From contig NC_133237.1 of NCBI RefSeq assembly GCF_040436345.1, positions 27,324,861 to 27,388,860 on the forward strand: a DNA stretch of 64,000 nt. The letters are read 5' to 3'. Positions 7,580 to 18,894 of the stretch are shown one piece after another. The stretch is from Pagrus major (taxonomy: Eukaryota > Chordata > Actinopteri > Spariformes > Sparidae). Numbering within the stretch: the first letter of the stretch is position 1; the number at the start of each line of letters is the position of its first letter. The position numbers and the translations under genes were made by a program. The notes under the pieces are model-generated. The model was not told the origin of the DNA, did no database searches, and saw only the letters and a program-made list of their open reading frames with translations.

Positions 7580-10500
7580 ATGGAGGTCAAACTGTTAGTT
7601 TGTGTTGTTGTGGCTTTAGCGGTTACAGGTGAGTGCTGTTAATATGGTCTCAGTAGAGGACCAGTGTGGATAATCTGATTTATTTAGTATTTATCATGAA
7701 AAGACGTCCGAATCATGAATGAATCTTCTGTTCAACCAAGGACAACTCTGCAGTTCAGTCTTTTGTGTTTTCAGCTGTAAATAATCAGTTATTTTGTATG
7801 AAGGGTGTGTTCGGTACATGGATAATTATACTCCTTTTATTTCTATTAAAATCACCATTATTGGGAAAAAAGAAAATTAACATCAATATAACAGGTGATT
7901 CCAAAATGTAAGCACAAAACATTAACGATAACCTTTAATCCAACTGTACATATTGAGACACTGTGTGTGTATAATCTGAACTGATGCTGTAACGACCAGT
8001 CGACCAAACGATCTCAACAAGGAAATATACAGATGTATATTTTACGGATGAGGTTTAGGACCATTGAGAAATAAAATGGGTTCCGACTTTTTCTCAGAAT
8101 TAAAGTCAGAGGAAAAAAAGCAGAATTATAAATTAAAGTCAGAATTATGAGTTAAAGGAATAGTTCACTCTAGAACGAAATTCAGTCATTATGGACTCAC
8201 CCTCATGCTGATGAGAAATCCGGTGTAGTTTTTTATTCCTCAAAGTGCAGCTGGAGACCCGCGGTGGTACCGTCCTGCAGCAATAATCCATATAACAGGC
8301 ATCAATGGTGCCCGAGACGAAAAGGTCCATAAAACTACACATAACCTTTGTAATATTCCTCCATACTGCTCGTCCGCTGCAATCCAAGTGTCCTGAAGTG
8401 GCGACATCCAGAGTTTACTGGAAACGACGTCATTTAGTACATTTTTCTAGCCTAAACAGTCACTATGCTACATTTGCCTGGAGGCACGCTCCCGCGTTCA
8501 CGCGAGTCTCCCTCACACCCGCTCGCACTACGGAAGCTGCGCCGGACAAGATGAACAAGAACTCGCGATAGATACACACCGGTATTTACATCCTGGATCT
8601 GCTGCACTAGTGATTTGAAACTTTGAACTTTGGTGTGTATCTATCGCGAGTTCTCGTTCATCTTGTCTGGCGCAGCTTCCGTAGTGCAAACGCTGTGAGG
8701 GAGACTCGCGTGAACGCGGGAGCGTGCCTCCAGGTAAATGTAGCATAGGGACTGTTTAGGCTATAAAAATGTACTAAATGATGTAGTTTCCAGTAAATTC
8801 TGGATGTCGCCACTTCAGGACACTTGGATTGCAGCAGACGAGCAGTATGGAGGAATATTACAAAGGTTTTGTGTAGTTTTATGGACCTTTTCGTCTCGGG
8901 CACCATTGACGCCTGTTATATGGATTTTTGCTGCAGGACGGTACCACCGCGGGTCTCCAGCTGCACTTGGAATAAGAAACTACACCGGATTTCTCATCAG
9001 CATGAGGGTGAGTCCATAATGACTGAATTTCGTTCTAGAGTGAACTATTCCTTTAAAGTCAGAATTATGAGTTAAAGTCAGAATTATGAGTTAAAGTCAG
9101 AATTATGAGTTAAAGTCAGAATTATAAGTTAAAGTCAGAACTTTAAAGGGTGACCAGTTTTCTAACAACTTTTCTTAAAGGTCCCATATTATACTGTTTT
9201 TAATCAATTTAACACAGCTGTCAGAGGTCCAACAACACTGTATTGGAAACGTACTGCCCCAAACCCATCCGTGGTCCTGAACTTCAGCTGTCTGAAAGTG
9301 GCTCAGGTGAGCTCTGCTGAGAGCAGCTGTTTCTGTGCCTGCACCTTTAAATGCTAATGAGCTCCGTCCTGCGACACGCCCCTCTCAGGGAGAGGATGCC
9401 GCTTACGCTAGCGGTAGCATGCGCTAATGTTTACGGTGGATGTATCGCTATGGCTCGCAGAGATGCTGTCGTTCAACCGCACCAGTTTGACCCAGAATGG
9501 GACCCAGGAGGAGGCTCAGAAAAACACAGACTCTGCGGCTGCAGCAGGATGTTTCAGAGCGGTTAGTGTGTCTGAGTGTGTTACTTAGTTACCAAGCTCC
9601 CTCGTAATATTATTAACATTAAACTCGCTTCAAACGCCGTTGCATAGCGGACCGAAGCGGAGCTAACTAGTTAGCCAATTTCAAGCTGACGTCACCATAC
9701 TCGTAGGCAACTGTAAATACTGTCAAAACACTGCGACACTCACCTGTGGCTCGGTGCAGCTGCTGGGTCCCGTATGGTTTGGACTGATCCTTTTACGAGG
9801 GTCAGTGTCGAGGCAGCTTTGTACTGACCCTCGTTACTGAAGCAGTCCGATGTGAAGTGGTTAGCACACACAAACAGACTTACAGGAACCGTAGCCGGCA
9901 CGTTGTCGTTAACAATGAAACGCAACCACTGTCTCTTCTGCTCTTCTGTAGCTGGGACAGAATAAAGGCACTTATGTTGATTTTTACAACCAACAACAGA
10001 GCAGTTTGCGTGTCCAGCTCACTGCTAACACTGCTGTCTTACCGCTGGACACACCGACCTTCACCTCGGGGATGAACGCCCCCCGCTTGGATGTCTCCGG
10101 GGAGAGGGGGGCGTGTTTTCGGCCTATGCAAATCACTCCTGTCGTTACGTAACGACGGGAGCTGAATCTGAACAGCCTGTAGGAGCCCGTTTTACCAGCG
10201 GGGGGCTGCAGAGACGACGCAGCACTCGTTTGTTTCCTCATTCTGGGAGTTGGTAGGCTCAGGGAGGACCAGTTTATATGTAGAGACCAGAGAAAACCTG
10301 TTTTTCATAATATGGGACCTTTAAATGTTTGATTTTCTGAGTAATGACACGTATGAAGAGATGTTGAAATCACTGTACAAAAAAATATTAATAACACGTT
10401 TTATTCTTTGTCTCTCCCACAGGAAGCAATGCACAGTTAGATGGTGAGTTTCTCTTCCTTTAGTTTCTCTGTTTAAAGGTTTAAAACAGTCCAGGTTTGA

Positions 10501-18894: not shown

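Follow-up and report, generated by a model that had tools for sequence, protein, structure and literature searches.

An intact, duplicated S1A pseudoprotease pair in Pagrus major whose cleft loops are likely diversifying under selection

When a trypsin-fold gene has lost its catalytic residues, is it a decaying enzyme or a protein retained for another role? Pseudoproteases are often named from the missing residues alone. The question is raised here by a window of 64,000 nucleotides (the whole stretch of DNA analyzed) on contig C23 of Pagrus major, in an examined genome of 786 Mb and 25 contigs. This one window contains a catalytically dead gene pair, an active-looking sister gene and a co-duplicated hsp70 control, so that retention of the dead form, and selection on it, become measurable. 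What it holds is a real, intact and duplicated S1A pseudoprotease pair, of a known kind and new in its detail, with a function that we infer. Our preferred reading, held with moderate confidence, is that the two genes encode retained membrane-tethered S1A pseudoproteases of prostasin/testisin-like layout, with ligand-facing loops diversifying under selection and a putative role in binding. A literature search of titles and abstract openings, with subscription papers mostly outside its reach, returned no publication on this gene pair among the matches listed; this does not in itself establish that the pair is unpublished.

The left gene runs from ATG to stop at 7580-18894 on the plus strand and encodes 300 amino acids in six exons. 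Exon 1 (7580..7628) encodes a hydrophobic, signal-peptide-like N-terminus and is followed by exon 2 (10423..10443). Exon 3 (12776..12938) carries the activation site TR/IVGG, the slash marking the bond, and TAAQC (H57Q, codon 74); exon 4 (14915..15183) carries Asp102, exon 5 (16673..16812) carries D189G, and exon 6 (18634..18894) encodes GDGGGP (S195G), a hydrophobic GPI-type tail and the stop. A TATAAA at 7475..7480, about 100 bp 5′ of the ATG, and an AATAAA at 19013..19018, 3′ of the stop, are noted as motifs only. The sequence-only reading of this gene had described it as intact and as having lost both its catalytic His and Ser while keeping Asp102 and an activation site. All of this is borne out: the 903-bp CDS is open with no internal stop, all five introns are GT-AG, LTAAQC (12913-12930) and GDGGGP (18634-18651) are present on the plus strand, Asp102 is seen in a chymotrypsin-numbered alignment, and the activation site is an Arg-Ile bond. 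Residues 34-262 match the Pfam Trypsin profile (PF00089) over 220 of its 220 positions with E=1.5e-68, which is far above chance. The putative signal peptide and GPI-type tail were read by eye from the translation, as was the C-terminus of both genes of the pair, in which small residues are followed by a hydrophobic tail to the end.

That reading had named the left gene only. A second intact copy lies about 34 kb away on the opposite strand (61888-53285, minus strand); it shares Q57 and G195 with the left gene, and its CDS of 903 bp is likewise unbroken. Its exons 1 to 6, all on the minus strand, are at 61840..61888, 59081..59101, 58386..58548 (activation site TK/IVGG and TAAQC, H57Q), 56085..56353, 54579..54718 and 53285..53545 (GDGGGP, S195G, tail and stop). 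A TATAAA (61993-61988) and an AATAAA (53166-53161) on the same strand are again motifs only. The right protein matches the Trypsin profile over 220 of 220 positions with E=5.5e-69. Both CDS were checked, and no stop, frameshift or splice loss was found in either copy.

The two genes sit in the arms of an inverted repeat that align in blocks at 92-98% identity. In the left arm (6445..22804) the left pseudoprotease is accompanied by an hsp70; the right arm (49895..63011) pairs another hsp70 with the right pseudoprotease. The two hsp70 frames, each of 639 amino acids and named from its own sequence, lie at 20676..22595 (minus strand) and 50105..52024 (plus strand) and serve as internal control. 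The arms end at defined points, and the approximately 27 kb of non-repeat sequence between them holds the active-looking sister, here called the middle gene. Left intron 2 contains a reverse-transcriptase frame (RVT_1, PF00078; 11423-12526, minus strand, E=3.4e-29) in a stretch absent from right intron 2, and right intron 3 contains a second RVT_1 fragment (56684-57025, plus strand, E=2.1e-12). In both arms a near-palindrome of about 0.9 kb sits in intron 1 (8139-9088, 91% self-complementary, and 60410-61314, 90%), perhaps a foldback-type repeat. Elsewhere in the window, a stub1/CHIP-like frame at 731-1282 (plus strand) matching TPR_1 (E=3.8e-14) and CHIP_TPR_N (E=1.5e-12) adjoins the block; human STUB1 lies near the tryptase/testisin genes, and the neighborhood is possibly old synteny. 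Two further long frames with a plausible start Met, at 32045-33001 and 38497-39465 (both plus strand), have no Pfam match at E<=0.001.

Residue numbers and loop assignments were taken from an alignment to chymotrypsin. At the three triad positions, all of which an active S1A enzyme needs, both copies have Q57, D102 and G195. The sequence-only reading had called the left gene otherwise intact, which holds for the frame and for Asp102 and fails for the S1 pocket: both copies share D189G, S190T, G226S and V227G, together with two extra residues inserted after Phe215. The Asp189/Gly216/Gly226 signature of trypsin specificity is thus broken by G189, S226 and the two residues added after 215. Ile16, Asp102, Gly193, Asp194 and Ser214 are kept in both. 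With the fold kept, triad residues replaced and the gene intact, both copies would be classed as S1A pseudoproteases. Established S1 chemistry implies loss of the usual hydrolytic mechanism, and neither protein is predicted to carry out proteolysis. The activation bond is Arg-Ile in the left copy and Lys-Ile in the right.

The cysteines had likewise been said to remain. Eight of the ten usual ones do, and would form four of the five chymotrypsin disulfides (1-122, 42-58, 168-182 and 191-220, the last cysteine being set at 219/220 by alignment), while Cys136 has no partner, position 201 being Arg; in the active sister 136 and 201 are both Ser. N-glycosylation sequons are found at N83 in the left protein and at N102 and N166 in the right; the active sister has none over the residues aligned to the pair.

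The middle gene (41681..47602, minus strand) shares the layout of the pair and has an intact triad (H57, D102, S195) and D189. Its exons, at 47602-47554, 45913-45893, 45164-45002, 44677-44409, 42665-42526 and 41956-41681, measure 49, 21, 163, 269, 140 and 276 bp; the last exon of the pair is 261 bp. Left and right differ by dS 0.051 and dN 0.078, left and middle by dS 0.50 and dN 0.30, and by dS the middle gene is the nearest relative among those compared. Because left and right carry the identical H57Q and S195G, these losses are most simply older than the left-right duplication, and most simply fall between it and the split from the middle gene. A third close copy was not found: an intron-4 probe, with very common words skipped, matches two places in the genome, which are the pair. 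In an exon-4 protein search of the genome, the middle gene (62%) and an array on contig C20 (56-58%) follow the pair among the matches listed.

The C20 array (C20:13858221-13886680) shows at least 17 exon-4 matches at a spacing of about 1.7 kb and could represent either a single giant polyserase or genes arrayed in tandem. Those of its domains that were read, in L045 and L046, have AAHC and GDSGGP followed by Thr-rich stretches, and at its 3′ end is a degenerate domain (SDQC, GDQGGP) that carries a hydrophobic tail. Upstream of the window, at C23:27191839 to about 27209000 (L009-L011), are two polyserase-like genes with Thr-rich linkers, in which domain 1 has AAHC and GDSGGP and domain 2 has its His replaced (NADC) with GDSGGP kept. 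For the codon models the outgroups were these two genes, about 120 kb upstream and active in their first domain, together with one C20 domain.

How have the two dead copies diverged since they separated? They differ at 61 of 903 coding bases and at 133 of 8188 noncoding bases, the latter counted over seven collinear alignable blocks, with non-aligning stretches that contain inserts excluded. Exons 1, 2 and 3 differ at 1/49, 0/21 and 8/163 bases, exons 4, 5 and 6 at 25/269, 14/140 and 13/261, so that exons 4 and 5 reach 9-10%, whereas the aligned parts of the five introns differ by 0.6-2.1%. The 100 intron bases on either side of exon 5, on either side of exon 6 and after exon 4 each contain a single difference; the exceptions are the stretch after exon 3, with 6 in 98 aligned bases, and that before exon 6, with 7 in 217, and before exon 4 only 30 bases align. 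Any 903 aligned noncoding bases in a row have at most 24 differences, against the 61 of the coding sequence. When introns 2, 3 and 5, which carry different inserts, are forced into a global alignment, divergence is 15-27%. At the 61 differing bases the middle gene agrees with the left copy 25 times, with the right 13 times and with neither 23 times. Import of segments from a third paralogue was considered and rejected for want of a donor, the next exon-4 matches being at most 62% among the matches listed.

The excess is nonsynonymous. The pair differs at 50 of 675 nonsynonymous and 11 of 225 synonymous sites, several codons having changed at two or three bases. From the noncoding rate 10.96 nonsynonymous differences would be expected (P=3.8e-16). 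The hsp70 pair of the same arms differs at 3/1477 nonsynonymous and 14/440 synonymous sites, and the nonsynonymous rate of the pseudoproteases exceeds both the hsp70 synonymous rate (P=0.0017) and the pooled synonymous rate of both pairs (25/665, P=0.0025). Inside the CDS alone nonsynonymous and synonymous rates do not differ significantly (P=0.12). Synonymous sites are also above noncoding (P=0.0016), whereas the six codons with a synonymous change alone (6/225) are not (P=0.17). A codon model in which noncoding DNA sets the left plus right length gives omega 5.3 and rejects omega 1 (2ΔlnL 74.5), but this omega is too strong because free lengths fit better than the noncoding clock (lnL -3137.9 against -3141.7). 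With free lengths omega on the left and right branches is 1.36-1.65, not significantly above 1 (2ΔlnL 2.2). Positive selection on the pair is on these comparisons likely, though not proven. No indel is found in the 903 coding bases, and survival of the frame is weak as proof of function: 1.99 frame-breaking indels were expected, with P(0)=0.14.

The amino-acid differences fall mainly in loops around the former cleft (60, 70-80, 99, 148, 172, 192 and 217). Left and right differ at 41 of 300 residues, 36 of them within the 232 residues of the protease domain. The loops at the rim of the cleft (37, 60, 70-80, 99, 148, 172, 185, 192 and 217) differ at 26 of 79 positions against 10 of 153 elsewhere in the domain, with P=3.9e-7, which is optimistic because the loop limits were drawn with the list of differences already in view. 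The 36 replacements are milder than random single-base replacements (P=0.008). The active pair about 120 kb upstream behaves similarly: 7 of 10 replacements are in the same rim loops, and its first domains show 12.8 nonsynonymous against 3.2 synonymous changes by counting and a model omega of 0.63. Fast rims are therefore not special to the dead copies; they characterize the subfamily, and the dead pair has kept or exaggerated them.

Could the copies simply be drifting? Under relaxed constraint the enzyme would have died and both copies would be on their way to pseudogenes. H57, S195, D189 and G226 are all replaced, as this predicts, and the equality of nonsynonymous and synonymous rates within the CDS alone is compatible with it. 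So is the stem lineage before the duplication, with an omega of 0.57-0.68, several-fold that of other branches (0.13-0.17), and a three-class model (lnL -3137.934 to -3138.034) that does not reject a stem omega of 1 (2ΔlnL 1.9). However, the better-fitting four-class model, fitted from several starts, places the stem at 0.57, below 1 (P=0.044), with the middle gene at 0.56 and the rest at 0.13. The 34 polarized stem replacements are also milder than random single-base changes (mean BLOSUM 0.06 against -0.66, P=0.005). With the same omega as its active sister and mild replacements, the dead lineage was evidently no freer than that sister, which speaks against plain decay. Concentration of stem replacements in the rim loops was looked for and rejected (11 of 79 loop positions against 25 of 153 elsewhere, the loop count omitting positions that differ between left and right). 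Drift also fits poorly with a nonsynonymous rate above the noncoding and synonymous references, with differences that favor rim loops and spare cysteines and splice sites, and with two intact reading frames. We regard relaxed constraint as unlikely. The narrower possibility, raised with the original reading, that the left copy alone decayed recently is weakened by the same evidence and by the presence of the losses in both copies.

A different objection concerns the noncoding reference. Inverted repeats with hsp70 arms are prone to gene conversion, and conversion between the arms could have homogenized introns and flanks, so that noncoding divergence would understate the age of the copies and the exon excess would be partly older divergence kept only in exons. 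The synonymous sites of both gene pairs (11/225 and 14/440) do exceed noncoding (133/8188), the noncoding clock is outperformed by free lengths, and there are 6 differences in the 98 bases after exon 3. Against it, within 100 bp of either end of exons 5 and 6, and of the 3′ end of exon 4, divergence is down to about 1%, and nonsynonymous sites still exceed pooled synonymous sites. Moreover, exons staying apart under conversion would itself require selection. We give this explanation slightly less credence than relaxed constraint. That an assembly or haplotype artefact turned two alleles into the arms of an inverted repeat is very improbable: noncoding divergence of 1.6% could be allelic in a diverse fish, but the arms have defined ends, enclose non-repeat sequence with an active gene and carry different inserts, including a reverse-transcriptase element.

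A retained pseudoprotease pair with a putative role in binding thus remains our preferred reading. The sequence-only reading had proposed a pseudoenzyme acting as a binding, decoy or regulatory protein; of this, a retained non-catalytic role in putative binding is best supported. Replacement of the two catalytic residues, His and Ser, and of the Asp189 pocket is seen in the sequence, as is retention of the fold profile, activation bond and Asp194. In the mechanism we propose, the protein would be secreted, GPI-tethered and perhaps cleaved before Ile16, and would bind a protein partner through the rim of its dead cleft; candidate partners are proteases, inhibitors, receptors and surface proteins of pathogens or gametes. 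Under selection, the two copies would have moved apart towards different partners or variants of a partner. Retention of the Ile16/Asp194 switch where catalysis is gone suggests that the cleaved two-chain form could be the binding form, by analogy with HGF and MSP. Exon-loop divergence well above that of the introns may mean that the copies now bind rather than cut. A bolder version, which we offer as speculation, is that the pair is a germline-diversified cell-surface recognition module in which rim loops freed from catalysis would serve as a variable binding face, and duplication and selection would give new specificities in immunity or gamete recognition. If the binding-face reading is true, this would be a vertebrate, membrane-tethered case in which the loops of substrate choice were reused for recognition after catalysis was lost, and the residues to test are named.

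Compared with known systems, the pair resembles the GPI-anchored S1A enzymes prostasin and testisin (PRSS8/PRSS21) in its single trypsin domain, N-terminal hydrophobic leader and hydrophobic C-terminal tail. These enzymes have the full triad, whereas in the pair two of the three triad residues and the S1 pocket are replaced. Matches to solved structures do not single out prostasin: enteropeptidase comes first (1.2e-54) and prostasin (3gyl, E=3.1e-54) is the second-named protein. HGF has Gln at 57 and Tyr at 195, so that the pair shares its Gln57 and differs in Gly195. In HGF/MSP-like ligands kringle and PAN domains precede the dead S1 domain, whereas the pair has a GPI-type tail and in the Pfam search matched only Trypsin and DUF1986, with no kringle or PAN match, and no clip match of the kind that would ally it with clip-domain serine protease homologues. 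Azurocidin, in which Ser195 is Gly, is alike in this residue and in being an inactive homologue, and differs as a granule protein of another S1A branch without a tail.

HGF and MSP combine an S1 fold lacking catalysis with two-chain cleavage and a receptor-binding pseudoactive-site region (PMC13194640), and azurocidin is a mammalian active-protease duplicate turned inactive homologue (PMC7914634). In viper venom, homologues of serine proteases (rhinocerases 2 and 3) have His57 and Ser195 replaced and Asp102 conserved, mostly as Arg57/Asn195 with Gln57 in one homologue, and no Gly195 is among the changes listed there (PMC3123349). For ASSET, venom serine proteases are described as changing at three segments of the surface, one of which is close to the substrate site, and three-finger toxins as keeping similar introns while exon segments differ (PMC2711939). 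Set beside these venom proteins, which are secreted, the pair shows mostly scattered codon changes, not exchange of whole segments. The scabies mite SMIPPs form a catalytically dead S1 family that binds, for example, C1q, properdin and MBL (PMC5427104); they share the dead S1 fold with the pair and are secreted mite proteins of an unrelated lineage.
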